From the NCBI RefSeq assembly GCF_012927185.1, contig NZ_JABBGB010000002.1, positions 1,302,001 through 1,366,000 on the forward strand: 64,000 nucleotides of DNA. Direction: 5' to 3'. This DNA is from Pseudoflavitalea sp. G-6-1-2 (GTDB taxonomy: Bacteria; Bacteroidota; Bacteroidia; Chitinophagales; Chitinophagaceae). This document shows positions 7,264 to 32,572 of the stretch, one piece after another. The position numbers were made by a program, and so were the translations under genes. The notes below the pieces were generated by a model, which did no database searches, was not told the DNA's origin, and saw only the letters and a program-made list of their open reading frames with translations. Position 1 is the stretch's first letter. Every line of letters begins with the position of its first letter.

Positions 7264-7287
7264 ACTGATCATTGCAATCAGCATATA

Positions 7288-7318
7288 TGCACCGGTACAT
7301 CACCGGTGCATTTTTTTT
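7288..7318 (+). terminator. Intrinsic terminator of nagB
   Basis: A perfect 9-bp stem, TGCACCGGT (7288-7296) and ACCGGTGCA (7302-7310), has a 5-nt loop and is followed by eight T residues. It lies 25 nt after the nagB stop. Confidence 0.93.
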
Positions 7319-15250: not shown

Positions 15251-16423
15251 CTATTGTAGTCCGCGGGCAATGCCGAGTTCGAGACCTCTCAGTTCGGCTA
15301 ACCCTCTCAGCCTTCCGATGGCCGAGTAACCCGGATTTGTTTTCTTTTTCAGATCGTCCAGCATCTGATGTCCATGATCCGGACGCATAGGAATTGACGC
15401 CTTACGACTGCGCATCACTGTTATGATATTCTTTACCACACTGTACATATCTACATCTCCTTCGAGGTGATTGGCTTCGTAGAAATTGCCGGCTTCATCA
15501 CGCTGCGTACTGCGCAGGTGAATGAAGTGTATGCGGCTGCCCAGTCGCGCTACCATGCCCGCCAGATCATTATCGGCACGTACGCCGAAAGATCCCGTAC
15601 AGAAGCACAATCCGTTTGCCTTTGATGGCACGGCTTCGAACAAAGCATTCACATCGGCTTCGGTACTCACTACGCGTGGCAATCCGAAGATGGGATACGG
15701 AGGATCATCCGGATGGATAGCCAGCTGTACGCCCGCTTCTTCCGCAGCAGGTGCGATCTGCTGCAAAAAGAAGATCAGATTGGAACGAAGTTTTGCCGCA
15801 TCAATTCCCTCGTACTGATCCAGCGCGCTTTGAAACTGTTGCAGCGTAAAGCTTTCCTCAGATCCGGGAAGTCCGGCAATGATGTTGCGTTGCAGCAACT
15901 GTTTTTCTTCGGAACTCATACTGTCCATACGCGCTGCAGCAGCAGCCAGTTCAGCGGCTGAATATTCGTCTTTGCTTCCTTTACGTTGCAGCATCAGTGT
16001 ATCGAACGCAACATAGGCGGCGCGTTCAAAGCGGAGTGCCTTTGATCCGTCCTCCACTTCATATGCCAGATCGGTGCGCGTCCAATCGAGCACAGGCATG
16101 AAGTTATATGTAACGATATGTATGCCGCATTCCGCCAGATTGCGGATGCTCTGCTGATAGTTCTGAATATATTGCAGGTACTCTCCCTGCTGTGTTTTGA
16201 TATGTTCGTGTACAGGAATGCTTTCCACTACATTCCAGATGAGGCCTGCCTCCTCGATCACTTTCTTACGCGCGAGTATTTCCTCTTTCGTCCATACCAC
16301 TCCGTTAGGGATATGATGCAGCGCCGTAACGATCCCTGTAGCTCCTGCCTGTCTGATATCCGCGAGGCTTACCGGGTCTGAAGGACCGAACCAGCGGAAT
16401 GATTGCTCCATTGCAACGTTCAT
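15251..16423 (-). CDS. uxuA: Mannonate dehydratase
   Basis: This 390-residue enzyme dehydrates D-mannonate to 2-keto-3-deoxy-D-gluconate in D-glucuronate catabolism. The sequence follows UxuA throughout: [34 protein letters not shown], metal-site segments [16 protein letters not shown] and [16 protein letters not shown], and the C-terminal MRPDHGHQM. It lies 41 nt downstream of altronate dehydratase in the same operon, so the pair covers both arms of hexuronate breakdown. Isomerase and reductase genes are not in the window. The start could also be the Met at residue 5. Confidence 0.95.
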
Positions 16424-16464
16424 AGAAGAATGTTGATTGAATTATTTAGAAGTTCTGATGAAAA

Positions 16465-18129
16465 TTAAAGTGATACGCCTCTTCTCCATGGAATGAAATC
16501 ATCCTGGCCAAGCTTTACTGCTTTGGGTTCTGCATTGCCACTGGCCACATCGATGATATAGTCCATTATTCTGGAAGCTGTTTCGGGTATGGTTTCTGTG
16601 CCTTCGATAATTGTTCCGCAGTCGATGTCGAGAATATCCGGCATGCGTTTGTACAAAGCTGTATTGGTACTGAGTTTTACTACAGGAGCAACAGGATTGC
16701 CGGTGGGTGTTCCCAGCCCCGTAGTGAACAAAACAATGTTGGCGCCTGAACCCACTTCAGCTGTTGTGCTTTCCACATCGTTACCGGGAGTGCAAAGCAG
16801 ATTGAGTCCGGGCTTGGTTACTCTTTCCGGATAATCCAGTACATCCGCTACCGGTGATGTGCCGCCTTTTTTGGCTGCACCTGCCGATTTGATGGCATCG
16901 GTGATGAGTCCGTCACGCACATTGCCTGGCGAGGGGTTGGCGTAAAAGCCCGAACCCGCAGCCTCCGCACGGGCATTGTAGGTACGCATCAGATCCATGA
17001 ACTTCTGTGCTGTAGGAGCATCCACACAACGATCGCTCAACTCCTGCTCTACGCCGCAAAGCTCAGGGAATTCGGAAAGGATCACAGACGATCCCAGTGT
17101 AACAAGTATATCAGAAACATAACCAACTGCAGGATTGGCGGAGATGCCGGAGAACCCGTCTGAGCCTCCGCATTCCAAACCGATGCACAATTTGCTCAGG
17201 GGAGCGGGCTTGCGCTCGTTCTTATTGGCCTGCATCAGGCCTGCGAATGTTTTTTTGATGGCTTTCGTCAGCAGCTGGCTTTCGGTGCCCTCTTTCTGCT
17301 GTTCCAGCAAAATGAAGGGTTTGCTGAAATTGGGATCACGTTTCATGATCTCTTTTTTCAGAATGCTCGCCTGCGCGTGCTGACAGCCAAGGCTGAGTAT
17401 GGTAGCTCCTGCAACGTTGGGATGCGTAACATAACCGGCAAGCAGTCCGCATAAAGCTTCTGCATCCATCTTGGTACCGCCGCAACCCATTTCGTGATTG
17501 AGGAATTTAATGCCGTCGATATTTTTGAAGATCTTCTTATTGTTTACAACAGCAGGTTTTTCGGTGAATTCAAGGTTCAGGATCTCTTCTTCCGAAACGC
17601 CCTGCTGGTACATATTTACGAGGGTTTCCACATCGCTCTCAAATGCTTTCACTTTGCTGTAACCGAGCTTTTCGATCAGGGCTTCTTTCAGCACTTCCAC
17701 GTTTCTGTTCTCACAGAATACGAGTGGAATAACTACCCAGTAGTTGGCAGTACCAACTGATCCGTCGGCACGGTGATAGCCCATGAACTGTTTATTCTTC
17801 CACTGACTAACATCGGGTTGTTTCCACTGAAGCTTTCTTTCGCCCAATGTAAAATCGTTGGTAGCGTGGTGGATATTTTCTGTTGTGATGGCAGCGCCCT
17901 GCGGAATGGGTTTATCGGCCTTTCCTACCAGTACGCCATACATATAAATTTCATCACCGGGAGCCAGATCGCTCATAGTGAATTTATGTTTGCCGGCAAC
18001 TTTTTCCACGAGAGAAAATTCCTTGCCATTGTGTTGAACCGGAGTGCCCTGTGGAAGATCCTGTAATGCAACGAGGATATTGTCATCGGGGTGTATCTGA
18101 AGATATTTGTAAGTAGCCTGCATAATCAT
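16465..18129 (-). CDS. uxaA: Altronate dehydratase
   Basis: This 554-residue enzyme dehydrates D-altronate, derived from D-galacturonate, to 2-keto-3-deoxy-D-gluconate. The N-terminal SAF-type domain (about 1-95) ends near DEIYMYGVLVGKADKPIPQG. The large catalytic domain shows HEMGCGGT, LSLGCQHAQ, GLECGGSDGFSGISANPA and LLCTPGNDVESTTAEVGSGA. Length and order match UxaA/GarD-type enzymes. It is the first gene of an operon with uxuA. Galacturonate released by the pectin enzymes at 38.8-43 kb is the expected source. ATG at 18129 or the second Met (18123) are both possible. Confidence 0.95.
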   Translation of the reverse strand: MIMQATYKYLQIHPDDNILVALQDLPQGTPVQHNGKEFSLVEKVAGKHKFTMSDLAPGDEIYMYGVLVGKADKPIPQGAAITTENIHHATNDFTLGERKLQWKQPDVSQWKNKQFMGYHRADGSVGTANYWVVIPLVFCENRNVEVLKEALIEKLGYSKVKAFESDVETLVNMYQQGVSEEEILNLEFTEKPAVVNNKKIFKNIDGIKFLNHEMGCGGTKMDAEALCGLLAGYVTHPNVAGATILSLGCQHAQASILKKEIMKRDPNFSKPFILLEQQKEGTESQLLTKAIKKTFAGLMQANKNERKPAPLSKLCIGLECGGSDGFSGISANPAVGYVSDILVTLGSSVILSEFPELCGVEQELSDRCVDAPTAQKFMDLMRTYNARAEAAGSGFYANPSPGNVRDGLITDAIKSAGAAKKGGTSPVADVLDYPERVTKPGLNLLCTPGNDVESTTAEVGSGANIVLFTTGLGTPTGNPVAPVVKLSTNTALYKRMPDILDIDCGTIIEGTETIPETASRIMDYIIDVASGNAEPKAVKLGQDDFIPWRRGVSL

Positions 18130-18804: not shown

Positions 18805-19671
18805 ATGAGACCTCAACTACTGAAAGTATCAAAAGCGCCACGGCACTCATTCAGCGTAAGACAAGACATTGTTCCTTATGTGAACAACCGCTGGCATTAC
18901 CATCCAGAAATTGAACTGATCCATTTTAAGAAGGGTGAAGGCACCCAGTTCATCGGTGACAATATCAAAAGGTTCAAATCCGGCGATATTGTGATGGTGG
19001 GTGCACAGCTTCCCCACTACTGGCGTTTCGACGACACCTATTTCGAAGAAGGCAATACCCTGCAGGCAGATGTTCGCGTAGTGCATTTCTGCGAGAACTT
19101 CTGGGGAGATCAGTTTCTGCAACTGCCGGAGAACACCAATATCAAAACCCTGCTCGAAAAAGCGAGACGCGGTTTGCAGATCTCCGGCAAAACCCGCCAG
19201 CACGTGGGCGAATTGCTCGAAGCATTGCTCAACACCGACGGCACCATGCGCATCATGCTGCTGATGGAAGCACTCAATACCATCGCAGAATGCAAGCAGC
19301 TCGACTCGCTCTCTTCCATCGGATTCAAGCAGGAACTGGTAGAAGCGGAAAGCGACCGCGTAAACGCCATCTACGATTACAGTCTCAAGAACTTCAAAAG
19401 AAAAATACAGCTGGAAGAAATTGCTGCTGTAGCGAATATCAGTCCCAATTCGTTCTGCCGCTACTTCAAATCGAGAACCCGCAAAACCTACTCACAGTTT
19501 CTGATTGAGATCAGAGTGGGCCAGGCCTGCAAACTGCTGATCGAAAACAACCTCAGCATCAAGCAGCTCTGCTATGAAAGCGGCTTCAATAATTTCACGA
19601 GCTTCCATAAATATTTCAAGATGATCACCGGCAAGAGTCCGCTGAACTATCAGAAAGAATTTATGGCCTAA
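18805..19671 (+). CDS. AraC-family transcriptional regulator
   Basis: This 288-residue regulator has an N-terminal cupin sugar-sensing domain (about 15-160: NNRWHYHPEIELIHFKKGEG, GDIVMVGAQLPHYW). A C-terminal double helix-turn-helix lies at about 190-286 (IQLEEIAAVANISPNSFCRY, FKSRTRKTYSQFLIEIRVG, CYESGFNNFTSFHKYFKMI, GKSPLNYQKEF). It lies 13 bp upstream of the GH36 gene on the same strand and probably controls that operon, and perhaps the divergent uxaA operon. Family members usually activate sugar genes. The inducer is not known; a galactoside or uronate would fit the neighbours. Confidence 0.93.
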   Translation: MRPQLLKVSKAPRHSFSVRQDIVPYVNNRWHYHPEIELIHFKKGEGTQFIGDNIKRFKSGDIVMVGAQLPHYWRFDDTYFEEGNTLQADVRVVHFCENFWGDQFLQLPENTNIKTLLEKARRGLQISGKTRQHVGELLEALLNTDGTMRIMLLMEALNTIAECKQLDSLSSIGFKQELVEAESDRVNAIYDYSLKNFKRKIQLEEIAAVANISPNSFCRYFKSRTRKTYSQFLIEIRVGQACKLLIENNLSIKQLCYESGFNNFTSFHKYFKMITGKSPLNYQKEFMA

Positions 19672-19684
19672 CTAACTATCCCTT

Positions 19685-21835
19685 ATGATCAGATTTCCGG
19701 TATTGTTGCTGGCTGCATTCACCTGCATCCGGCTCCAGGCTCAACGCATTGCACCTATCGTAATTGAAACTCAAAATGCCAGCCTGGTGCTTACAGTATC
19801 CGGGAACCAGCGCGTGCAGCAGGCATATCTGGGCAAAAAAATCAACCAGCCGATCATCGACAAACTCGGCGGAGGACGCGAGGCCTACCTCACCGCAGGG
19901 ATGGAAAACCAGTTCGAACCCGCTATCCGCATGGTGCATAACGATGGCAATCCTTCGCTGGAACTGCGTTACGTTTCTCATAGCTCACAAACCAACGGCA
20001 ATGTAATTACTACGGATGTGGTGATGCGCGATCCCGTGTATCCTGTGGATGTAACACTCCACTATACCGCCTACAAAGCTGAAGACGTTTTCAGTTGCCA
20101 GGCCATCATCAAACATCAGGAGAAAAAACCAGTGATGCTTACGCAGTATGCATCCAGCATGCTTCACTTCAATGCCGATGAATACTGGCTTACACAGTTT
20201 CATGGCGACTGGGCACGCGAAGTGAATATGGTGGACGAAAAACTTACGCACGGCATCAAATCGCTCGACAGCAAGCTGGGTGCCAGAACAAATTTCTATC
20301 AAACCCAGTTCTTCTTTCTCTCCCTCAACAAACCTTCCGACGAAAATAACGGAGAGCTGATCGCCGGAACCCTTAACTGGACCGGCAATTTCCAGTTCAC
20401 CTTCGAAGTAGATCAGCGCAATGCATTACGCGTTCGCAGTGGCATCAACCCCTATGCCTCCGAATACTACCTTGCTCCCAATGAAATTTTCACCACTCCC
20501 GAAATGGTGTTCACCTGGAGCAGCAACGGAAAAGGACAGGCAAGCCGCAATCTCCACCGATGGGCGCGCAACTATGCCGTACTCGACGGAAAAGGCGAAC
20601 GCATGGTGCTGCTCAACAACTGGGAAGCCACCCATACCAGCTTCGACGAAAAACGCCTGACAGAATTATTCGACGAAGGCAAAAAACTCGGCGTTGATCT
20701 CTTCCTGCTCGACGATGGCTGGTTCGGAAATACCTTTCCCCGCAACGACGACAAAACCGGTCTCGGCGACTGGCAGCCCGATAAAACCAAACTTCCCAGC
20801 GGCATCGGTTACCTCGTAAACGAAGCTGAAAAAAGAGGCATCCATTTCGGCATCTGGCTCGAACCAGAAATGGTGAACCCCAAAAGCGATCTCTACAAAG
20901 CGCATCCCGACTGGATCCTGAAGCTTCCCAACCGCGAAGAGAACTACGGAAGAAACCAGCTGGTGCTCGATCTCACCAACCCCAAAGTGCAGGATTTCAT
21001 TTACAATCTCGTGAACGACCTCCTCACTCAGAACCCTAAACTGGCGTATATCAAATGGGATTGCAATCGCAGCATGACCAATGCCTATGCTCCTTACCTC
21101 AAAGAAAAACAATCGCATCTCTACATCGAGTACACCAGATCGCTGTACAAAATTCTGGAGCGCATCCGCGCCAAATACCCGAAGCTGCCGATTATGTTAT
21201 GCGCAGGCGGTGGCGGCAGAACAGATTACGGCGCCATGAAATATTTCACGGAGTTCTGGCCCAGCGACAATACCGATGCACTCGAAAGAATATTCATTCA
21301 ATGGGGATATTCTTACTTCTTCCCTGCCAACACCATCTCTGCGCATGTAACCAGCATGGGCAAGAACCAATCCCTGAAATTCAGAACAGATGTGGCTATG
21401 ATGGGAAGACTCGGATACGATATCCGCACCAACAATTTCACCAAAGAAGATATCGAGTTCACCAACAACGCCATCAAAACCTACAAGCAGATTTCACCGG
21501 TTATTCAGCAGGGAGACCAATACAGACTGGTATCTCCTTACGAAGAAGATCGTGCCGTGGTGATGTACGCAGAAGAAAAGAAAGAAAAAGCTATCCTGTT
21601 CCAGTACTTCACTACACCGAGAAGAAAGAATATATTTACCAATGTGAAACTGCAGGGGCTTGATGGAGGGAAAAACTATCGCATTCGCGAGATCAATCTT
21701 TATCCCGGTACAAAGAGCAATAACCCTGAGAACGATAAAACCTATTCGGGCGAATACCTGATGAGCATTGGCCTGAATATTGCGCCGAGAGGATTAGCAA
21801 TGACCAGCAACGTGTTTGAGATCATTGCACAATAG
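19685..21835 (+). CDS. GH36 alpha-galactosidase, secreted
   Basis: This 716-residue glycosidase has a signal peptide (MIRFPVLLLAAFTCIRLQAQ) and is predicted to be periplasmic. The GH36 hallmarks are all there: LLDDGWFG, GIWLEPEMVNPKSDLYKAHP, the nucleophile Asp459 in KWDCNR, CAGGGGRTDYG, and the acid/base Asp528 in WPSDNTD. Length matches the usual ~700-residue bacterial GH36. It should remove terminal alpha-galactose from oligosaccharides. It follows araC by 13 nt and precedes a beta-propeller protein and GH3, so it is part of one operon. Confidence 0.94.
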   Translation: MIRFPVLLLAAFTCIRLQAQRIAPIVIETQNASLVLTVSGNQRVQQAYLGKKINQPIIDKLGGGREAYLTAGMENQFEPAIRMVHNDGNPSLELRYVSHSSQTNGNVITTDVVMRDPVYPVDVTLHYTAYKAEDVFSCQAIIKHQEKKPVMLTQYASSMLHFNADEYWLTQFHGDWAREVNMVDEKLTHGIKSLDSKLGARTNFYQTQFFFLSLNKPSDENNGELIAGTLNWTGNFQFTFEVDQRNALRVRSGINPYASEYYLAPNEIFTTPEMVFTWSSNGKGQASRNLHRWARNYAVLDGKGERMVLLNNWEATHTSFDEKRLTELFDEGKKLGVDLFLLDDGWFGNTFPRNDDKTGLGDWQPDKTKLPSGIGYLVNEAEKRGIHFGIWLEPEMVNPKSDLYKAHPDWILKLPNREENYGRNQLVLDLTNPKVQDFIYNLVNDLLTQNPKLAYIKWDCNRSMTNAYAPYLKEKQSHLYIEYTRSLYKILERIRAKYPKLPIMLCAGGGGRTDYGAMKYFTEFWPSDNTDALERIFIQWGYSYFFPANTISAHVTSMGKNQSLKFRTDVAMMGRLGYDIRTNNFTKEDIEFTNNAIKTYKQISPVIQQGDQYRLVSPYEEDRAVVMYAEEKKEKAILFQYFTTPRRKNIFTNVKLQGLDGGKNYRIREINLYPGTKSNNPENDKTYSGEYLMSIGLNIAPRGLAMTSNVFEIIAQ

Positions 21836-21861: not shown

Positions 21862-22680
21862 ATGAAAAAGCTCTTATTCCTTGCGATCACATCTATTTCC
21901 CTGACCGCATCTGCACAGCAAAAGCTGGAGAAGATCTGGGAGACCGATACAATCGTTGCCATTCCCGAATCTGTATATCCTGATTTCACCAGAAAAACAA
22001 TGTTTGTGTCGCTCATCGACGGACCCGGCTGGGTGGCCGACGGCAAGGGCGGCGTAGGCAAGCTGAGTTTCGACGGAAAGAAATACGACGGCAACTGGAT
22101 CACCGGCCTGAACGCTCCCAAAGGCATGGGCATTTCCGGCAATCGTCTCTTCGTAGCAGACATCAACGATGTGGTGATCATCGATATCAAAAAAGGAGCC
22201 GTTGAAAAGAAGATCAGAATCGACAGCGCCAAAGCGCTCAACGACATAACCGTGAACGATAAAGGCATCGTATTCATCTCCGACTCCCGTGCCGGAAACA
22301 TCTACAAACTGGAGAATGATGTTGCTACTCTCTATCTCGAAAATCAGAAAGGGGTGAACGGATTGAAAGCAATCGGCAGTGATCTCTACATCGCAGCCGG
22401 AAAGAATTTCGTGAAGGCAGATGCCAGCAAACAAATCACTCCCATAGCAGAACTTCCACAAAGCGGTGATGGCGTAGAACCTGTTGGCAACGGGGATTTC
22501 ATCGTAACAGCATGGGCCGGATATATTTTCTACGTGCACAAAGATGGCAAGGTAGATACCCTGCTCGAAACGCATCCACAGAAAAAGAACACAGCAGATA
22601 TCGGTTACGATCCACTTAAAAAAATAGTGTACGTACCCACTTTCAACGGAAAAACCGTTGCTGCTTACCAATTGAAATAA
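21862..22680 (+). CDS. Secreted SMP-30/gluconolactonase-like beta-propeller protein
   Basis: This 272-residue protein has a signal peptide (MKKLLFLAITSISLTASAQ) followed by repeated blades with the pattern of SMP-30/YncE-type propellers (GISGNRLFVADINDVVIID, DITVNDKGIVFISDSRAGNI, GLKAIGSDLYIAAGKNF, DIGYDPLKKIVYVPTF). A lactonase role on sugar lactones is possible, but the metal ligands of true gluconolactonases cannot be confirmed here. A binding function is equally likely. It sits between GH36 (26 nt) and GH3 (18 nt) in the same operon. Confidence 0.75.
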   Translation: MKKLLFLAITSISLTASAQQKLEKIWETDTIVAIPESVYPDFTRKTMFVSLIDGPGWVADGKGGVGKLSFDGKKYDGNWITGLNAPKGMGISGNRLFVADINDVVIIDIKKGAVEKKIRIDSAKALNDITVNDKGIVFISDSRAGNIYKLENDVATLYLENQKGVNGLKAIGSDLYIAAGKNFVKADASKQITPIAELPQSGDGVEPVGNGDFIVTAWAGYIFYVHKDGKVDTLLETHPQKKNTADIGYDPLKKIVYVPTFNGKTVAAYQLK

Positions 22681-22698
22681 TCATCAATTCAAGTTATT

Positions 22699-25104
22699 GT
22701 GAAGAAACATTTGTTCGCGATGGTACTGCCTTTGATTGCAGTACCATTTTTTTTGCAGGCGCAGACTGGTTCCATCTATCACCAGGGCTGGATCGATTTC
22801 AACAAGAACGGAAAACGCGATGTGTATGAAGATCAGCTGCAACCCATCGAGAAACGGATTGCCGATCTCATTAGTCAGATGAATGTAGAAGAAAAGACCT
22901 GCCAGATGATCACGCTGTATGGGTTCGGTCGTGTGTTGAAAGACGAACTGCCTACCGACGCATGGAAGCAAAGTCTCTGGAAAGATGGCATCGCCAATAT
23001 CGACGAACACCTCAACAGTCTGCCTTACAACAAAAAAGCAGTTTCACAATATTCTTATCCGCAGAGCAAACATGCCAATGCCATCAATACTGTTCAGCGC
23101 TGGTTCATCGAAGAAACACGTCTGGGCATTCCGGTTGATTTCACCAATGAGGGCATTCATGGTCTCAACCACGACAGAGCCACGCTCCTTCCTGCACCGA
23201 TTGCCATCGGCAGCTGCTGGAACAAAGAACTCGTATTCCGTGCAGGACAAACCGTAGGCCGCGAAGCAGCAGCCACTGGCTACACCAATGTATACGCGCC
23301 TATTCTCGATCTGGCCCGCGATCCGCGCTGGGGGCGGGTTGTAGAGTGCTACGGAGAAGATCCGTTCCATATAGCGGAGCTCGGCAAACAAATGGCGCTG
23401 GGCATCCAAAGCCAGGGAGTTGCCAGCACAGTAAAACATTTTGCTGCTTACAGCATGCCCAAAGGTGGCCGCGATGGTGATGCCAGAACAGATCCGCATA
23501 TTGCTCCACGTGAGCTGCATCAGATGCATCTCTACCCTTTCCGCCGGGTAATTGAAGAAGCCCATGTACTTGGTGTGATGAGCAGTTACAACGATTACGA
23601 TGGTGTTCCCGTCTCCGGCAGTCATTACTTTCTCACCGAATTGCTGCGCCAGCAATATGGGTTTAACGGATACGTAGTTTCTGACAGCCGTGCTGTGGAA
23701 TTCCTGTACAAGAAACATAAGGTGGCAGCGGATTACAAAGAAGCCATCAGACAGGTAGTGGAAGCAGGTCTCGATGTAAGAACCGATTTCACCAAACCCG
23801 AAGATTATGTATTGCCGCTTCGCGAACTGATCCGCGAAGGATCGTTGAGCATGCAGACCATCGATCAGCGCGTAGCGAGTGTATTGCGTGTAAAATTCAA
23901 ACTGGGATTGTTCGATCATCCATATGTGGCAAACCCTGCAGATGCCGACAAAATTGTTTTTAATGATGCAGCCAAAGCCATGCAGGAGCAGCTTTCCAGA
24001 GAAGTGCTGGTATTGCTGAAGAATGACAACAACACCTTACCACTCGATGTAAAGAAAATTAAGAATCTGCTGGTAACCGGTCCGCTTGCAGCGGAGACGA
24101 ATCATTCCATCAGTCGTTATGGTCCGTCGAACGTGCATGTGATCTCTGTTCTCGAAGGATTGCAGCAATATGCCGGCAACAAATTCAAAGTGCAGTTTGC
24201 AAGAGGTTGCGACATCACAGATCCTAACTGGCCGGAAAGCGAAATACTTCCTTCTCCGATTACAAAATCAGAACAGGCAACGATTGATTCTGCCGTTGCA
24301 CTTGCGAAAAAGTCAGATGCCATTGTGGTAGCGTTAGGCGAGAACGAACAAATGGTGGGAGAAAGCAAAACCCGAACGGGACTTGATCTTCCAGCCCGTC
24401 AGCTGCAACTGTTGCAGGCCATGCAGGCAACAGGCAAGCCGGTAATTCTGGTACTGATCAATGGTCGCCCACTCACAGTAAACTGGGCGCAGAAGTATAC
24501 ACCGGCCATTATCGAAGCATGGTTCCCCGGCGCAACCGGAGGAAAGGCCATTGCTGAATCGATCTTCGGAGATTACAATCCCGGAGGAAAACTCGCAGTC
24601 ACTTTTCCGAAAACGATCGGACAAATAGAACTGAACTTCCCTTACAAACCCGGCTCGCATGCGGGTCAACCCGGAGATGGGCCGAATGGCTACGGAAAAA
24701 CAGCTGTCAATGGTCCCCTCTATCCGTTCGGCCACGGTCTAAGCTATACCAGTTTCGGTTACAGCAATCTGGTGATCACGCCAGATAGCCCGCGTACTCA
24801 ACAAGGCATTTCAGTTTCTGTCGATATCACCAATACCGGAAAAAGAAAAGGAGATGAAGTGGTACAGCTTTACCTCAAAGACGTTGTAAGCAGTGTAACG
24901 CAGTACGAAATGCTGCTTCGCGGGTTCGAACGGATTACATTGGAGCCGGGAGAAACAAAGAAGGTTAGTTTTCAATTGAAGCCTTCAGATCTGGCGCTGC
25001 TCGATAAGAACATGAACTTTGTGGTGGAACCCGGAGAGTTTGAAATACAGATGGGAAGCAGTTCTGCGGACATTCGAATCAAAAAAAGTTTTCTGGTGAA
25101 ATAA
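22699..25104 (+). CDS. GH3 glycosidase (beta-glucosidase/beta-xylosidase type), secreted
   Basis: This 801-residue GH3 enzyme has an N-terminal barrel (about 40-390), an alpha/beta sandwich (about 420-640) and a C-terminal fibronectin-III-like domain (about 690-800, LLRGFERITLEPGETKK). The nucleophile is Asp329 in GYVVSDSRAVEF, with the family motifs YAPILDLARDPRWGR and TVKHFAAYS. The start is GTG 22699, which alone gives a proper signal peptide (MKKHLFAMVLPLIAVPFFLQ). The codons for that signal peptide contain a strong terminator hairpin with a T-tract (22720-22754), so expression relative to the upstream genes may depend on translation. Substrate could be beta-glucoside, xyloside or galactoside. 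It follows the propeller gene by 18 nt. Confidence 0.93.
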   Translation: MKKHLFAMVLPLIAVPFFLQAQTGSIYHQGWIDFNKNGKRDVYEDQLQPIEKRIADLISQMNVEEKTCQMITLYGFGRVLKDELPTDAWKQSLWKDGIANIDEHLNSLPYNKKAVSQYSYPQSKHANAINTVQRWFIEETRLGIPVDFTNEGIHGLNHDRATLLPAPIAIGSCWNKELVFRAGQTVGREAAATGYTNVYAPILDLARDPRWGRVVECYGEDPFHIAELGKQMALGIQSQGVASTVKHFAAYSMPKGGRDGDARTDPHIAPRELHQMHLYPFRRVIEEAHVLGVMSSYNDYDGVPVSGSHYFLTELLRQQYGFNGYVVSDSRAVEFLYKKHKVAADYKEAIRQVVEAGLDVRTDFTKPEDYVLPLRELIREGSLSMQTIDQRVASVLRVKFKLGLFDHPYVANPADADKIVFNDAAKAMQEQLSREVLVLLKNDNNTLPLDVKKIKNLLVTGPLAAETNHSISRYGPSNVHVISVLEGLQQYAGNKFKVQFARGCDITDPNWPESEILPSPITKSEQATIDSAVALAKKSDAIVVALGENEQMVGESKTRTGLDLPARQLQLLQAMQATGKPVILVLINGRPLTVNWAQKYTPAIIEAWFPGATGGKAIAESIFGDYNPGGKLAVTFPKTIGQIELNFPYKPGSHAGQPGDGPNGYGKTAVNGPLYPFGHGLSYTSFGYSNLVITPDSPRTQQGISVSVDITNTGKRKGDEVVQLYLKDVVSSVTQYEMLLRGFERITLEPGETKKVSFQLKPSDLALLDKNMNFVVEPGEFEIQMGSSSADIRIKKSFLVK
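22720..22754 (+). terminator. Near-perfect intrinsic terminator inside the signal-peptide codons of the GH3 gene
   Basis: ATGGTACTGC (22720-22729) pairs perfectly with GCAGTACCAT (22738-22747) around an 8-nt loop, followed by an unbroken T-run to 22754. It begins 21 nt into the GH3 frame. It may end the GH36-propeller transcript, act as an attenuator released by a translating ribosome, or both. Confidence 0.8.
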
Positions 25105-25210: not shown

Positions 25211-26296
25211 ATGAGCATTTTATTATCTCCTTATCAAAAGAATGGGCTTTCGCTCAGCAACCGCATGGTAATGGCGCCGATGACACGCAACCGCGCTATC
25301 GGCAGTATTCCGAATGCACTGATGGCAGAATATTACGGGCAGCGCGCAACTGCGGGATTGATTGTAACCGAAGGAACTTCGCCTGCACCTGAAGGACTGG
25401 GTTACCAGCGTATCCCCGGCATCTTCACCAAGGAGCAGGTTGAAGGCTGGAAATTGGTTACCGACAAAGTACACGCCAACGGAGGAAAGATCTTTGTTCA
25501 ACTGATGCACACCGGGCGCGTATCGCATCAGGATAATCTTCCGGCAGGTGCACAGGTGGTGGGGCCTTCAACTATCGGCATGTCCGGGCAGATCCATACA
25601 TTAAACGGAGCCTTTAACTATTCTACGCCTGTTGCACTCAGCGCAGAAGCAATAAAGCAAACGATAAAACAACATGCAATAGCCGCAGAGCTGGCAATGG
25701 AAGCAGGTTTCGACGGAGTGGAATTGCATGGTGCACATGGCTATCTGATTGAGCAATTCCTCAATCCGCATGTGAACAACCGCACAGATGTTTATGGAGG
25801 CAACCATATCAACCGAAGCCGGTTTGCTATCGAAACAGCTATTGCAACCATTGCTGCTATCGGGAAAGAAAGAACCGCCATCCGCATCTCCCCATTCTCT
25901 ACACTGAATGATATGCATGCGTATGAAGAAGCCGAAGTGGATGCAACGTATCAGTACCTGGTGAGAGAGCTGAGCAAACTCGAACTCACGTACCTGCATA
26001 TTTCCAGAAATCCGATGACGACGCCAGAGCGATTGAAATTCTTCAGAGAAACTTTCAAGGGCACCATCATTGTCTGCAATGGATTCGATGCCGCAAGCGC
26101 TGAACAATTACTCGAAGAAGGAACTGCCGACCTCATAGGATTCGGAAAACCATTCCTTGCAAATGCAGACCTGCCGCAGCGTTTCGCACATCAGGCTCCG
26201 CTGAATCCGGTTGATTTCAAAACCATGTACGGCAATTCAGCTGTTGGATACACCGACTATCCATTGATGAACGAAATGCCTCAGCCACAACAATAA
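25211..26296 (+). CDS. Old Yellow Enzyme family alkene reductase
   Basis: This 361-residue FMN-dependent ene-reductase (NemA/XenB type) reduces activated C=C bonds with NAD(P)H. Typical segments are NRMVMAPMTRNRA, GLIVTEGTSPAPEGLGY, KIFVQLMHTGRVSHQ, the barrel motif FDGVELHGAHGYLIEQFLNP and the phosphate-binding end ADLIGFGKPFLANADLP. There is no signal peptide, so it is cytoplasmic. It lies 106 bp after GH3, convergent with the gene at 26367, and is not obviously tied to polysaccharide breakdown. Confidence 0.93.
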   Translation: MSILLSPYQKNGLSLSNRMVMAPMTRNRAIGSIPNALMAEYYGQRATAGLIVTEGTSPAPEGLGYQRIPGIFTKEQVEGWKLVTDKVHANGGKIFVQLMHTGRVSHQDNLPAGAQVVGPSTIGMSGQIHTLNGAFNYSTPVALSAEAIKQTIKQHAIAAELAMEAGFDGVELHGAHGYLIEQFLNPHVNNRTDVYGGNHINRSRFAIETAIATIAAIGKERTAIRISPFSTLNDMHAYEEAEVDATYQYLVRELSKLELTYLHISRNPMTTPERLKFFRETFKGTIIVCNGFDAASAEQLLEEGTADLIGFGKPFLANADLPQRFAHQAPLNPVDFKTMYGNSAVGYTDYPLMNEMPQPQQ

Positions 26297-26366: not shown

Positions 26367-28424
26367 TTAGAGAACGACTCTTACAGTAGCGCCATCTTTG
26401 ATGGCGTATTTTTTTTCCTGACCGTTCTGTGTTACGATTATCTGCAATTTGCCTGCACCTGCCCTCATCACTTTCAGATCGAATACATGCCCGAAGGAGT
26501 GGATATTCTTCAAAGACATTGTGTTCCATTCAGCAGGTAATTTGGGGCTGCAATCGAAGCTGTTGAACCCTGCAGGACGCATACCGAATACACCTTCCGT
26601 GAAGATGCGGCAATATAATCCGCTCTCTGCTGAAAGATGGCGCTGATTCCCTTCGGGAAAAGCTTCCACCGGATAGGGCACGTGCTCTCCCAGCAATCTT
26701 CTTCTTGAATAATACTGTAAGAACTCAAGCGCCTTCTGTGTTTCGCCGGCAGCAAATACACCACGAAGCGCATAGAGCGTAGACCGGTCCCAGAATGTTT
26801 TGTTGCCTGCAAGTGAAGCGAGCCCGTCTTCCGTCCAGAGGCGTTTAGAGAAAAGCGCCGCAATGGTTCCCTCTTTTCTGTCGAAGATGTCAACAGTGAG
26901 AGGCCCGCAGATCCAGGCGCGGAGCGTATCATTTCCTTTGTAGTAACGATAGGTATTGAAGCCTTCCACAGTTGCACCAAAATATTTTTCGATATTGGCG
27001 CGGATATTCTTCTCACGAATTGCGTATTCTTTCAGTTGCTTCGCTGGAAGTGAAAGTGATTTGCCGAGCATACCTGCGGAACGCAATGCATCGTAATACA
27101 AAATGCTTGTGTGAAGGTTGGCATCACCTGCGGGAAATCTTCCTTCCAGTTCATCGCTGTTGCTCGCAACAACACCATCTGCGTTGATCTGACGATGCAG
27201 GTATTCGAGACACCATTCGATCAATGGCCATAGAACCTTTGCCGAGTCTGCATTTCCGTTGGCAAGCGCGTAGCGGCCTGCGCCGTAAGCGATCATTGCC
27301 ATATCCCCCCTGTCGCGCCTTCCATGCCAGATGCCATCTCCTTCTGCAATGATGGAACTGGGGATTGGTTTGTAATCAGGATTCATATACTTCGCAAACC
27401 AGCGGTATGCATTCATCGCAGATTTGTTGCCTACATCATCCCCCAGAAACGAAAAGAATGGATTGATGTACTCCGCCTGATCATTCGCCCAGATAGCGGC
27501 ATAGTAGCGCAATCCACCGGGACCATGCATGTAACCTCCTTTGGTGAGAAAAATGCTTTCAGTGCCACGGAGTTTAGCAAAATCAAATGCTGTGTTCAGC
27601 AAAGGATCGGGTGTTTCCAGTATCAGCTTTGAAGAGATCTCTTTCACTCTCGCTTTTCTTGCAGCGAGCTCATCATCGGCGGAGAATTTCACTTCGGGTC
27701 TGTCTGCACTTGCTGCAGAATAGGCAATCACGAATGTAACGGACTCGCCGGGTTGCAATGTTTTCAATCCTTCATTCACTGTTGTTATGAAGAAGCTATG
27801 CTGATCGGGTGTGTTGCGTTCTTTGGCAGGTTTCACTTCGCGGCGCAGATACTCCATCTCCACTTTCAATGGCTGCTTGCCTGCATTGGTGAATTCCCAC
27901 TGCTCCAGCGCAAGCGGCTGCTTCACCGATGGGAACAGGGTTCTGCGCAATTTCACGCCCTGATCTTTTCCGATGGTGCTGTTCACCTGCATAATGCCAT
28001 GCTGGCTGATGCTGGTCACCTGCTCCTGCATGGGCGTGTTTATGCTTGCATTATACACGCCGTACCGGAAGAGTTTATCGTTGATGAGAAATCGAGGAAG
28101 ATCATTGTCGGTTACGTTGTAGGTCATGCTGGCGAGCGTGCGCACAGGCAGTAACCTGAATGTAGGGAACACCATGGTGCGATCGAGAGTAGCGCGGCCG
28201 GAAGTATCCACGCCGTATTGCACCCAGAGCGAAACTTTCTCCCCGCTCATCTCGATATGATCGTTGTGCGGAAGACGGTTATCGATGGTCCAGTTGATGC
28301 TGCCATCGGGTTGAATCGCCCATCTGTCCTGTTGTACAGCAATCGGCGGCTGGGATTGAGCAAAGAGGGCAGCCGGAAATAAAAAGGACAACCCCAGTAA
28401 TTTCAGTGAATTGGTTTTCGTCAT
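26367..28424 (-). CDS. Secreted six-hairpin glycosidase-like protein, family not assigned
   Basis: This 685-residue protein has a signal peptide (MTKTNSLKLLGLSFLFPAAL ... AQS). It then has a beta-sandwich region (about 30-260) and an (alpha/alpha)6-barrel-like region (about 270-600) with RYYAAIWANDQAEYINPFFS, GDGIWHGRRDRGDMAM and SVLWPLIEW-like helices. The segment DGVVASNSDELEGRFPAGDA and the Trp-rich C-terminal part fit the six-hairpin glycosidase superfamily, where GH15, GH63, GH65, GH78 and GH95 lie. I cannot assign a CAZy family. An exo-acting role on a pectic side chain is inferred from its divergent partners, a beta-helix protein and GH105. Its 3' codons contain the terminator of the convergent OYE gene. 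Confidence 0.72.
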   Translation of the reverse strand: MTKTNSLKLLGLSFLFPAALFAQSQPPIAVQQDRWAIQPDGSINWTIDNRLPHNDHIEMSGEKVSLWVQYGVDTSGRATLDRTMVFPTFRLLPVRTLASMTYNVTDNDLPRFLINDKLFRYGVYNASINTPMQEQVTSISQHGIMQVNSTIGKDQGVKLRRTLFPSVKQPLALEQWEFTNAGKQPLKVEMEYLRREVKPAKERNTPDQHSFFITTVNEGLKTLQPGESVTFVIAYSAASADRPEVKFSADDELAARKARVKEISSKLILETPDPLLNTAFDFAKLRGTESIFLTKGGYMHGPGGLRYYAAIWANDQAEYINPFFSFLGDDVGNKSAMNAYRWFAKYMNPDYKPIPSSIIAEGDGIWHGRRDRGDMAMIAYGAGRYALANGNADSAKVLWPLIEWCLEYLHRQINADGVVASNSDELEGRFPAGDANLHTSILYYDALRSAGMLGKSLSLPAKQLKEYAIREKNIRANIEKYFGATVEGFNTYRYYKGNDTLRAWICGPLTVDIFDRKEGTIAALFSKRLWTEDGLASLAGNKTFWDRSTLYALRGVFAAGETQKALEFLQYYSRRRLLGEHVPYPVEAFPEGNQRHLSAESGLYCRIFTEGVFGMRPAGFNSFDCSPKLPAEWNTMSLKNIHSFGHVFDLKVMRAGAGKLQIIVTQNGQEKKYAIKDGATVRVVL
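26390..26416 (+). terminator. Intrinsic terminator of the OYE gene, inside the 3' end of the convergent gene
   Basis: CGCCATC (26390-26396), a TTT loop and GATGGCG (26400-26406) form a perfect 7-bp stem followed by TA and eight T residues. It lies 94 nt past the OYE stop, within the last codons (YAIKDGATVRVVL) of the minus-strand gene 26367-28424. Confidence 0.82.
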
Positions 28425-28578: not shown

Positions 28579-30150
28579 ATGCAAAGAAGTAAACTCTTTC
28601 AGCTCATGAAATCCTTGCCATTGACCACCTCACTGCTTGCCGGTTTAGCTGCAACAGCTACAACTGCCGCCATTGTTTTTTCCATCGCTGCCGGCCCAAT
28701 GCCTGCATGGGAATCGAAGTTTGTAAAACAATTGCCGAACGGATCACTCGAATATGCTCCGGATCAGCAGGGCAATATCATTCCCGACTTCAGTGCAGTT
28801 GGTTTTTATCACGGTGATAAAGCCATTCCTGTTATTCCTGTTGTGACAACTATCAGTCCTTCGGATAATGCCATGCAGCAGATCCAGGAAGCCATCGACA
28901 AACTATCTGCCAGGCAACCCGATGCCAACGGATACCGTGGCGCTATTCTGCTGAAACGCGGCACCTACAATATCCCCGGATCGATCTTCATCAACGCCAG
29001 TGGCATTGTGCTGCGCGGAGAAGGCAATACGGAAGACGGAACAAAACTGATTGCACTGGCTCCCACTCAGAAACCACTGATCGATGTAGCAGGGAAAGGT
29101 ATGCTGAAAGAAATTGCCCGTTCACGCGTAGCCATCACAGACAACTATGTTCCTACAGGCGCTAAAAGTTTCAACGTGGAGGACGGATCCAAATTCGCCA
29201 AAGGCGATAAAGTGATCATCTATCAACCTGCCAATGATCAGCTGATCACCGATCTTAAAATGGATCAGATCGTTGAAAGGCCCGGCACCAAACAGTGGAG
29301 CGCCAATCAATACAATCTCAGCTTCCAGCGCGAAGTGGTGAGTGTGAAAGGAAATACCATCGAACTGGATAACCCCGTGATGCTGGCCATCGACAGCAAA
29401 TACGGAGGTGGCTATCTTTACAAATATACTTTCGACGGACGCATTCAGCATGTAGGCATCGAGAACATCTACTGCGAATCGCCCGCCAGTTCCGACACTG
29501 CGGAGAATCATGCATGGGATGCAGTATCGTTCGACAAAATCGAGAATGGCTGGATCACTAAAGTAACCGCTCGTTACTTTTCTTATTCCTGCGTTAATCT
29601 CAGCGGATGGGCAAAGAACATAACAGTATCGGACAGCCGCTGCTTCGATCACAAAAGCAAAATCACGGGAGGCCGCCGTTATTCGTTCAACAACGATGGA
29701 CAGCAGAACCTCATCATGAACTGCACCACTTCCGATGGACGTCACGATTACGTAACCGGCGCCAAAACACTCGGTCCGAATGTATTCACCAATTGCTCCT
29801 CAGACATCACGCATGCAGATATCGGCCCGCACCATCGCTGGGCTGTTGGAACGCTGTACGACAATATCACTACAGACGGAGAGATCAATGTGCAGGATCG
29901 CGGAAACTATGGAAGCGGCCATGGTTGGGCAGGCGTAACGCAGGTGCTCTGGAACTGCAAAGTGAAAGCAGCTGCTGTGCAGAGCCCATGGGTAGCCGGA
30001 AAGAATTACAGCATCGGTACCACCGGCCGTCAGGCAGAAGGTCGATTCAAAGACAGACTGCCGGGAGAATGGGAAGGGCTGAACAAGAGCGGACTTCAAC
30101 CTCCATCATTGTACAAGGCACAGCTGGAAGCAAGACAGAAAAAGAAGTAA
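28579..30150 (+). CDS. Secreted right-handed beta-helix (pectate-lyase-like) protein
   Basis: This protein has 523 residues from ATG 28579; ATG 28606 is an alternative and both give a signal peptide around LTTSLLAGLAATATTAAIVF. Upstream sequence in frame does not read as protein. A long beta-helix covers about 100-480, with turn-like Asn/Asp repeats: GAILLKRGTYNIPGSIFIN, GIVLRGEGNTEDGTK, VGIENIYCES, HAWDAVSFDKIENGWITKV, CVNLSGWAKNITVSDSRCFD and DITHADIGPHHRWAVGTLYD. This fold is shared by pectate lyases and rhamnogalacturonases. Catalytic residues cannot be assigned, so lyase or hydrolase is open. A GH105 hydrolase follows 32 nt downstream and would act on unsaturated products, which favours a lyase. 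Confidence 0.78.
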   Translation: MQRSKLFQLMKSLPLTTSLLAGLAATATTAAIVFSIAAGPMPAWESKFVKQLPNGSLEYAPDQQGNIIPDFSAVGFYHGDKAIPVIPVVTTISPSDNAMQQIQEAIDKLSARQPDANGYRGAILLKRGTYNIPGSIFINASGIVLRGEGNTEDGTKLIALAPTQKPLIDVAGKGMLKEIARSRVAITDNYVPTGAKSFNVEDGSKFAKGDKVIIYQPANDQLITDLKMDQIVERPGTKQWSANQYNLSFQREVVSVKGNTIELDNPVMLAIDSKYGGGYLYKYTFDGRIQHVGIENIYCESPASSDTAENHAWDAVSFDKIENGWITKVTARYFSYSCVNLSGWAKNITVSDSRCFDHKSKITGGRRYSFNNDGQQNLIMNCTTSDGRHDYVTGAKTLGPNVFTNCSSDITHADIGPHHRWAVGTLYDNITTDGEINVQDRGNYGSGHGWAGVTQVLWNCKVKAAAVQSPWVAGKNYSIGTTGRQAEGRFKDRLPGEWEGLNKSGLQPPSLYKAQLEARQKKK

Positions 30151-30182
30151 CACATCCATACTCATCAAGAATACAAGTTTAC

Positions 30183-31433
30183 ATGAAACGTTTTCTATTA
30201 TCAGGGCTTGCCGCTCTTTCAACATGCAGCGCTGCGATTGCGCAAACCACTCCTGCACAGACAGAAGCTATTGTGCGGAAGGTGGCGGACAATATCATTC
30301 GCAGTACCAGCTTTAAATTCGTGAACAGCAAAACCGGTGAAACCTTTGCCAGCACTAAAGGGAAGGATACATCGGGAAACGTAAAAGCAGACAGCAAATT
30401 CAATAAATGGATGTATGTGAATGGCGTACTTACCGTAGGCATGGTACGCATGACTGAGGTACTGAAAGATCAGGCCTATCTCGATTATTCGAAGAAGAAT
30501 TTCAGTTTCATTTTCGATAACCTCGATTATTTCAAAAAACAATACGATGCAGGAAACAAGAATGTAGAGTATCGTCCGGTTTTCAGAATGGGTTCACTGG
30601 ATGATTGCGGTGCAATGGCGGCCGGTCTGCTCGACCTCTACCCTGCCGACAAGCGTGCAGATTACATGGCTTATCTCAAACGTGTATCAACGCATATCAT
30701 CGAAAAGCAATCTAAATTTCCTGACGGAACCCTCGCCCGTACTGGCCCGCGCAACATGACCCTCTGGGCAGATGATCTCTACATGAGCGTTCCCTACATT
30801 GCGCGCATGGGCAAGTTCACCGGAGAACAATCCTATTTCGACTTCGCCATCAAACAGGTTGAACAGTTCAACAAATACATTTACGATTCTGCCACTGGTC
30901 TCTACTTCCATACATTTTACAATGATGAGAACATGAATGGCGTTGCACATTGGGGCCGCTGCAATGGATGGGTAGCGCTGGCGCAGGTGGAGCTGCTGAA
31001 CAATCTCCCTGCGAATCATCCGAAACGTCCGGAGCTGATCAGATTGCTGCAAAGGCAGATCGTTGGATTCTCCCGTTACCAGGATATCGATGGCATGTGG
31101 CATCAGCTGGTAGACAAACCGGATTCTTATGCAGAAGCATCCGTAACGGCGATGTATGTGTATGCAGTAGCGAAAGCAGTGAATGAAGGATGGATCAACA
31201 AGCGATTCATCTCCATTGCACAGAACGGCTGGGATGCACTGGCAAAGAAGGTTACAGCAGATGGACAGGTAGAAGATATCTGTATCGGCACTTCGGTGGA
31301 AGAAGATATCCGTTATTACTACACCCGTCCCAAAGAAACGAATGATACGCATGGGCTCGGCGCCTTCCTGATGGCAGGTGCAGAAATGCTTCGTGCAAAA
31401 GATAAGCTGGTCGACATCAACAAACGTCGCTAG
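30183..31433 (+). CDS. GH105 unsaturated rhamnogalacturonyl hydrolase, secreted
   Basis: This 416-residue (alpha/alpha)6-barrel enzyme removes the 4,5-unsaturated uronic acid left by pectic lyases. A signal peptide (MKRFLLSGLAALSTCSAAIA) is followed by RMGSLDDCGAMAAGLLDLYP and the catalytic-Asp segment LWADDLYMSVPYIARMG. The loop is HWGRCNGWVALAQVELL; here the usual RGNGW reads RCNGW. ATG 30183 was chosen because the longer frame upstream overlaps the beta-helix gene in another frame. The gene is convergent with lacI and shares a CTAG with it: both stop codons overlap. Its terminator lies inside lacI. Confidence 0.9.
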   Translation: MKRFLLSGLAALSTCSAAIAQTTPAQTEAIVRKVADNIIRSTSFKFVNSKTGETFASTKGKDTSGNVKADSKFNKWMYVNGVLTVGMVRMTEVLKDQAYLDYSKKNFSFIFDNLDYFKKQYDAGNKNVEYRPVFRMGSLDDCGAMAAGLLDLYPADKRADYMAYLKRVSTHIIEKQSKFPDGTLARTGPRNMTLWADDLYMSVPYIARMGKFTGEQSYFDFAIKQVEQFNKYIYDSATGLYFHTFYNDENMNGVAHWGRCNGWVALAQVELLNNLPANHPKRPELIRLLQRQIVGFSRYQDIDGMWHQLVDKPDSYAEASVTAMYVYAVAKAVNEGWINKRFISIAQNGWDALAKKVTADGQVEDICIGTSVEEDIRYYYTRPKETNDTHGLGAFLMAGAEMLRAKDKLVDINKRR

Positions 31434-32446
31434 TTCCCGGTAGATTTTCGAACAATCAATTTTGAGTTGAGCATGATTTTTTCATCTGAAAAATTCATGC
31501 TCTTTTTTTCGAGTGTTTTGAAGAGCAGCGCTGCTGCTTCTTTTCCGATCTCGAATGCGGGTTGCGTGATGGTGGTGAGTGATGGATTCAGCCAGGCAGC
31601 TGTTTCGAGATTGGAGAAACCCAGTATTTTGATGTCTTCAGGAATCTTCAGTTTCAATTCTTCGCAGGCCTGATAGCTAAGAATGGCGAGCTTTTCAACA
31701 GATGCGAATATTCCGTCGGGTCTGTTCTTCTTCTTCAGCAGGTTTACAATGGCTTTGTAATTGGCTTCATTGTCGTTGGCGCTGCATTGCAGCACCAGTT
31801 TCGGATCGTGTGGTACACCTGCTTTTTCGAGGGCTTTCAGATATCCATCCATGCGTTTGCTGGCAATGGAAAGATTATTGGAGATACTCAGGTAAGCGAT
31901 CTTTCGGCATCCTCTTTCTACCAGGTGTTCGGCAGCCACCATGCCACTCTCGAAATCGTTGGTGGTTACTCTTCCGCTGTTCAACGTTTCACAAACACGA
32001 TCGAAGAATACGATGGGCACACCGGTTTGCTTGAGATCGTTGAGGTGATCGAAACTGCTGGTTTCCCCTGAAAGGCTTACCAGTGCTCCGTCTACGCGAC
32101 CACTCTGCAAGTGCCGGGCAATAGATTCTTCTCTGCTGAATTGTTCGTGAGTAAGATAAATGAGCACATGATATCCTTTTTCCTGCGCAATGCTTTCGAT
32201 GCCATTGATGGCCAGTGCAAAAAAGTTATTGGCGATTTCGGGAACCACCACAGCAATGGTTTTGCTTTTCTGTTTACGCAGACTGCTGGCGTAAGGATTG
32301 GGCACATAATTGAGTTTACGTGCCAGCTCAAAAACCCGCTGTTTGGTTTCGGCACTGATCTCGTAGCTGTCGCGCAGCGCACGGGAAACAGTGGAAACTG
32401 CGAGGTTGAGTTCTTTCGCCAGTCTTTTCAGGTCAACATTTGGCAT
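31430..32446 (-). CDS. LacI-family transcriptional regulator
   Basis: This 338-residue repressor has an N-terminal helix-turn-helix (LKRLAKELNLAVSTVSRALR), the hinge helix (NPYASSLRKQKSKTIAVVVP, with the intercalating Leu) and a periplasmic-binding-like sugar domain (IANNFFALAINGIESIAQEK, GVPIVFFDRV, KILGFSN). ATG 32446 was chosen over the longer frame because it yields the standard HTH start MPNVDLKRLA and follows a perfect -7 box. It lies between the beta-helix/GH105 operon and the pectin utilization locus, and is the best candidate regulator of one or both. Palindromes in its own promoter suggest autoregulation. Its stop codon overlaps that of the convergent GH105 gene. Confidence 0.93.
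   Translation of the reverse strand: MPNVDLKRLAKELNLAVSTVSRALRDSYEISAETKQRVFELARKLNYVPNPYASSLRKQKSKTIAVVVPEIANNFFALAINGIESIAQEKGYHVLIYLTHEQFSREESIARHLQSGRVDGALVSLSGETSSFDHLNDLKQTGVPIVFFDRVCETLNSGRVTTNDFESGMVAAEHLVERGCRKIAYLSISNNLSIASKRMDGYLKALEKAGVPHDPKLVLQCSANDNEANYKAIVNLLKKKNRPDGIFASVEKLAILSYQACEELKLKIPEDIKILGFSNLETAAWLNPSLTTITQPAFEIGKEAAALLFKTLEKKSMNFSDEKIMLNSKLIVRKSTGN
31469..31509 (+). terminator. Strong intrinsic terminator of the beta-helix/GH105 operon, inside the lacI coding sequence
   Basis: Arms GAGCATGATTTTTTC (31469-31483) and GAAAAATTCATGCTC (31488-31502) pair over 15 bp with one mismatch and a 4-nt loop, followed by seven T residues. It lies 36 nt past the GH105 stop, within codons for the lacI C-terminus (KKSMNFSDEKIMLNSK). 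Confidence 0.88.
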
Positions 32447-32472
32447 GGTAACAATCGTTGAAATGGTTGTTC

Positions 32473-32480
32473 CAAATATA
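32473..32480 (-). promoter_or_regulatory. -7 promoter box of lacI
   Basis: TATATTTG on the minus strand matches TAnnTTTG exactly and would start the message about 20 nt before ATG 32446. GTTT lies 19 bases upstream as a -33 element and falls inside a palindrome. Confidence 0.6.
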
Positions 32481-32493
32481 AAAAATTGGGCGG

Positions 32494-32522
32494 TTTCGGA
32501 AACGATTCCGGAAAATTTCCGG
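32494..32522. promoter_or_regulatory. Overlapping palindromes at the lacI promoter (candidate LacI operators)
   Basis: GGAAACGATTCC (32498-32509) is a CG-centred imperfect palindrome of the LacI-operator type and covers the -33 element. CCGGAAA-A-TTTCCGG (32508-32522) is a perfect 7-bp inverted repeat that overlaps it. Their position implies autorepression. Confidence 0.5.
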
Positions 32523-32532
32523 CAGACAGGCA

Positions 32533-32572
32533 TAAAAACAGCCTGTCGGAAACATAAAGTTTCTGACAGGCT
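32533..32572 (-). terminator. Terminator at the end of the minus-strand GH28-SusC-SusD-GH105 block
   Basis: Arms 32540-32553 (AGCCTGTC-GGAAAC) and 32559-32572 pair over 14 bp with one mismatch and a 5-nt loop. On the minus strand they are followed by TGTTTTTATG. It lies 28 nt past the GH105 stop. Confidence 0.8.

Follow-up and report, generated by a model that had tools for sequence, protein, structure and literature searches.

Terminators placed inside operons that set gene ratios are known from rpsU-dnaG-rpoD (T1) and rplL-rpoB. Internal operon termination sites are also described for an archaeon (PMC10450193). In the pyrBI leader, a terminator system is linked to translation (discussed in PMC4824070). 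Measurements of terminator position relative to open reading frames in Escherichia coli gave an efficiency of about 0.9 when the distance from stop codon to hairpin exceeded 30 bp, and terminators lying up to 100 bp into an ORF also worked efficiently (Li et al. 2015; PMC4824070). For a terminator located 30 bp after the AUG and 48 bp past the upstream stop, local translation cut efficiency by only ~10%, and the reach of a terminating ribosome was 27 nt. Transcripts terminated early in the ORF were non-stop mRNAs that drew trans-translation, and upstream expression was roughly halved in the construct (PMC4824070).

The site described here lies in a window of 64,000 nt (the whole stretch of DNA that was analysed) and belongs to a run of four genes transcribed in one direction (+ strand) with gaps of 13, 26 and 18 nt. 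The run opens with an AraC-family regulator gene (18805..19671), followed by a GH36 alpha-galactosidase gene (19685..21835) and a secreted beta-propeller-like gene with a weak Arylesterase match (21862..22680; TAA at 22678-22680). After the 18-nt stop-to-start gap (22681..22698) comes the last gene, a GH3 exo-glycosidase (22699..25104; Pfam PF00933/PF01915/PF14310) with a GTG start at 22699 and a regular signal peptide, MKKHLFAMVLPLIAVPFFLQAQ, at its N-terminus. Read directly from the sequence, the signal-peptide codons contain a left arm ATGGTACTGC (22720-22729, + strand), a loop CTTTGATT of 8 nt (22730-22737, +) and a right arm GCAGTACCAT (22738-22747, +). These are followed by a T8 tract (22747-22754, +) that encodes Phe17-Phe18 and the first part of the Leu19 codon. 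The 10-bp perfect stem, 8-nt loop and T-run reported in the earlier note are hence present as described. The stem comprises 11 bp when a G-U pair at its foot is counted. The geometry given there (21-55 nt inside the GH3 frame, ~40 nt after the preceding stop codon) was also right when checked on the sequence, the distance from the propeller-gene stop being 39 nt.

The isolated hairpin has a predicted free energy of -16.5 kcal/mol (z = -6.2), and 0 of 200 shuffled sequences were equally stable. With 10-11 bp, this stability and a U8 tract, it has the form of an intrinsic (Rho-independent) terminator, a hairpin followed by a U-rich tract, and in a terminator consensus scan it ranked near the top among 24 terminator-like sites in 17 kb. 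Counting against a terminator, no more than half of the stem is G-C, with A-U at the foot. From the position of the T8, the transcript 3' end is predicted at about 22752-22756 (+). Intrinsic terminator 3' ends lie at a median of 37-57 nt from the upstream coding sequence in several bacteria (PMC12207403), and the spacing of the GH3 hairpin after the propeller stop fits these medians. Rfam gave no match above the gathering score to a known structured RNA family anywhere in the window.

Like the internal operon terminators, the GH3 element sits at the border of two operon genes, where it would lower the downstream gene; they are located in the spacer, whereas this one is inside the coding sequence of the downstream gene. 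As in the pyrBI leader and in pil1 of Streptococcus gallolyticus (PMC3894217), ribosomes translating through the hairpin could permit readthrough. Those two systems, however, use a separate short leader ORF and their regulation has been shown, while the ORF here is the structural gene GH3 itself, and any regulation of it would be putative. In the engineered construct W48 (tR2, E. coli; PMC4824070) the terminator likewise lies just inside an ORF, at 30 and 48 bp from start and upstream stop as against 21 and 39 nt for GH3. W48 is a synthetic reporter in E. coli, whereas the GH3 site is natural and conserved in its genus.

The placement of the hairpin within the gene depends on the GH3 start. 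The frame from the GTG at 22699 is very likely right, since GH3 orthologues across the family carry a signal-peptide-like leader ahead of the same mature start. An upstream stop codon lies a few codons before the start in genomes G000 and G001. No start 3' of the hairpin can be used if the signal peptide is to be kept. A start at the codon-8 Met, itself part of the stem, would lack the Lys n-region, and G004 has Val (GTG) at this codon. The GTG start of G004 adjoins an ATG on its 5' side, so that the weak GTG start, to which the earlier note had tied GH3 expression, is not conserved as the only start.

Six genomes were sampled from the genus (Chitinophagaceae; the genus includes Pseudoflavitalea rhizosphaerae), four of which have GH3. 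The earlier note had proposed conservation in relatives as a check, and at genus level the hairpin and T8 were found at identical codons in all four. All 10 pairs are kept in each, the sole stem change being A to G in G004, which turns an A-U into a G-U pair. The T8 is fixed at eight and both Phe codons are TTT in 4/4. The four GH3 proteins are 87-96% identical, and 30% of codons for the same residue are identical in all four. The seven degenerate codons of the stem and T-run (V9, L10, A14, V15, P16, F17 and F18) are all identical in the four genomes, with a residue-specific chance of about 4e-5. Variation falls in the loop (codons 11-13) and in most of codons 2-8, and the signal-peptide residues themselves diverge at codons 2-8 and 12-13. 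Among bases, 26 of 27 are invariant in the stem and T-run versus 20 of 36 in the rest of the signal peptide (Fisher p = 2e-4). Although this 27-nt footprint falls in a signal peptide, no other stretch of GH3 is as well conserved. Across four genes, 26/27 invariance in this pattern occurs in 5 of 2431 codon-phase windows, namely this site and four in mature GH36. Conservation by itself is therefore strong yet not unparalleled, and the telling part is its confinement to the stem and T-run within the signal peptide. The four genomes, two of them close (G001 and G004), represent few independent lineages. Compensatory changes were not seen among them; 9 of the 10 pairs never vary, and their invariance therefore says nothing by itself for pairing.

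Outside the genus, none of 32 GH3 orthologues had a terminator-like element between 260 nt upstream and 60 nt downstream of the mature start. The order araC-GH36-propeller-GH3 is common to G001, G002 (where the contig ends before araC), G004 and G034. The last of these is outside the genus and has the same four-gene operon without the hairpin and T8. The element is hence not required for operon function, and, because G034 keeps the gene order without it, it appears to have arisen in the genus or to have been kept only there. At the corresponding locus of G034 (L040), the propeller-GH3 spacer is longer and has a hairpin-forming stretch, CCGGATCTGAGATCCCGG, without a T-run.

Val, Leu, Ala, Pro and Phe are frequent in signal peptides, and we therefore recoded the same peptide synonymously 300,000 times, weighted by the codon usage of this genome. 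In 153 recodings (~0.05%, 5e-4) a perfect stem of 10 bp or more ran into six or more T; the hairpin and T8 in GH3 are not a product of chance. In the genomic background, 1.2 Mb of the same contig was scanned together with the window for strong terminators, defined as a perfect stem of at least 8 bp with T6 or more. The 34 strong sites in the 1.2 Mb were distributed as 31 intergenic, one antisense and two inside frames. These two other early-ORF candidates fall in frames judged to be over-extended, whose sequence and translation suggest true starts downstream of the hairpins. The GH3 site is the sole convincing early-ORF terminator in the ~1.26 Mb of this genome that were scanned. Its hairpin arms occur once in the genome. 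Elsewhere in the window the strong sites were likewise intergenic or antisense; a similar perfect 10-bp stem with T8 (7287-7318, +) lies just 3' of a glucosamine-6-phosphate isomerase/PIG-L fusion gene as an ordinary intergenic terminator.

We consider it probable that the element is an internal operon terminator overlapping the coding sequence of the next gene, in the signal-peptide codons of GH3. RNA polymerase moving along araC-GH36-propeller would make the hairpin and U8 out of these codons; most transcripts would end there, and a minority would read through into GH3. The three-gene mRNA would thereby receive its 3' end at the hairpin, which would also set GH3 below its operon partners. 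Since the GH3 start lies upstream of the hairpin, any transcript carrying that start must read through, and GH3 would be attenuated by construction. From the beginning of the operon sequence considered, as far as 4 kb upstream, down to the GH3 stop, no terminator-like site other than the hairpin occurs on the sense strand in any of the four genomes. In the ~1.9 kb that precede GH3, a scan for TAnnTTTG, the Bacteroidota-type -7 motif, found no copy in the four genomes, so that there is no sign of a GH3-only promoter, although so simple a scan could miss one. Conservation in 4/4 genus members makes it probable that the element cuts most operon transcripts short and so holds the GH3 enzyme at a low level, and selection for stoichiometry may have retained it. 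The efficiency of such termination in Bacteroidota is our assumption, extrapolated from E. coli. The earlier note had offered as its simpler reading that the hairpin ends the araC-GH36-propeller transcript and lowers GH3 output, and this reading is the best supported.

Transcripts terminated at this site would have the GH3 start without a stop codon, and initiating ribosomes would therefore need tmRNA-type rescue. A tmRNA gene is present in this genome, and a trans-translation cost similar to that in the E. coli construct may thus be expected unless GTG initiation is weak; by that analogy, we infer that a weak GTG start would spare the operon the non-stop cost.

The stem could be melted by a ribosome that starts on GH3 early enough, or by one that trails RNA polymerase closely from the propeller gene. 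In the strong form of this idea, initiation at the GH3 GTG or re-initiation from the propeller stop before the end of the T-run would mainly decide readthrough, and conditions altering initiation would switch GH3. The layout is compatible with such a gate: the GH3 frame crosses the stem 21 nt past its start, so that a translated ORF overlaps the stem as in an attenuator, and a ribosome two to three codons in would cover the left arm. The gap from propeller stop to GH3 start is short (about 18-20 nt) in 4/4 genus members. Ribosome-melted terminators are established, as in the pil1 leader of S. gallolyticus (PMC3894217), and intrinsic terminators can be repressed by coupled ribosomes (PMC7858274). 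However, the nearest measured geometry, near-identical to this one, lost only ~10% of its efficiency to local translation, and the stop-to-hairpin distance here is longer than the 27 nt over which a terminating ribosome reached (PMC4824070). No conserved antiterminator was recognised upstream, and no alternative antiterminator pairing was evident in folds of the four leaders. Both parts of the strong form, a gate that mainly decides readthrough and a switch of GH3 by initiation conditions, are unlikely; ribosome melting is probably a modest correction to internal termination and not the main switch. Of the translation-dependent attenuator proposed in the earlier note, the terminator-like element inside signal-peptide codons stands, while a strong gate is made unlikely by the E. 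coli analogy (PMC4824070).

The same note had suggested that termination might respond to engagement of the signal peptide with the secretion machinery, which is implausible. By the time RNA polymerase clears the T-run, 56 nt past the GTG, the first ribosome has made fewer than ~18 residues. The ribosome exit tunnel holds roughly 30-40 residues. All of the nascent peptide is thus still inside the tunnel and cannot yet have met the secretion machinery, and later ribosomes are too late to matter for that polymerase. A further reading has GH3 serve as its own leader peptide, its signal-peptide codons forming a ribosome-sensitive terminator so that the mRNA is completed only if GH3 translation begins promptly; this we regard as quite unlikely. 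Equally doubtful is its second element, in which each failed attempt would produce a non-stop end by which the three-gene mRNA is marked for rescue and decay. If true, a structural gene would double as a leader peptide.

It is improbable that the hairpin is a conserved but non-terminating mRNA structure, acting as a 3'-end stabiliser after processing or as a brake on early GH3 elongation, with the T8 incidental to Phe-Phe-Leu. Conservation of the stem alone would look alike, and TTT accounts for 38% of Phe codons, so that two TTT codons are not rare in one genome. In all four genomes, however, the T8 stands directly at the stem foot and both Phe codons are TTT, and the terminator scan matched the element exactly. 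It is highly improbable that the element serves as a palindromic DNA site for a regulator, for instance the AraC protein of the operon: an inverted repeat in an araC-led operon would suit it, but the site is unique in the genome, the T8 is left unexplained, and the element is absent from G034, where the operon is the same and its AraC gene is kept (82% identical). Matches to the same 8-mer arms are scattered through the family in unrelated contexts, and an operator of a wider regulon was rejected on the same two grounds of genomic uniqueness and unrelated contexts. Productive transcriptional slippage on the T8 was likewise rejected, as any slip exits the GH3 frame and the tract is always eight in 4/4. 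Chance combined with residue constraint in the signal peptide is the least credible account, for although the peptide V-L-P...A-V-P-F-F eases part of the complementarity and GH3 has another invariant 20-nt run, the recoding frequency is 5e-4, synonymous positions are conserved in the stem and T-run and not in the loop, and the residues of codons 2-8 and 12-13 diverge.

The mechanism is a known one, a familiar device in an unusual position, and what is new is that position together with its conservation. A literature search on premature termination combined with polysaccharide utilization in Bacteroides found no paper, and the part of the B. thetaiotaomicron atlas considered here has terminator annotation and nothing on early-ORF termination. 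If the site terminates as predicted, it would be a natural, conserved terminator in the first 100 nt of a structural gene, for which the E. coli precedent is synthetic (PMC4824070), and it would offer a simple test of transcription-translation coupling in Bacteroidota. Change-tolerant signal-peptide codons could then carry a regulatory RNA signal, and non-stop mRNA would be an expected product of normal operon expression.

Several neighbouring genes were also noted. An OYE-type flavin oxidoreductase gene (25211-26296, +) follows GH3 in G000 and G001 (59% identity); none was seen at this position in G002 or G004. On the opposite strand, the gene at 26367-28424 (-) encodes a protein of 685 aa whose start resembles a signal peptide and for which neither Pfam, even with a loose cut-off, nor NCBIfam gave a match. 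It is kept in the genus (~76% identity) and in G034 next to the same operon, and possibly represents an undescribed glycoside-hydrolase-like family. A 521-aa protein (28585-30147, +), encoded upstream of a GH88-type gene, has only sub-threshold Pfam matches (Ice_binding-like, DUF4955) and may be a pectin-active protein of beta-helix type. Genes for mannonate and altronate dehydratases (uxuA, uxaA; 15251-18129, -) lie near the galactoside operon; together with the GH88 gene and a LacI regulator at 30180-32533, they look like a uronate/pectin utilisation region.
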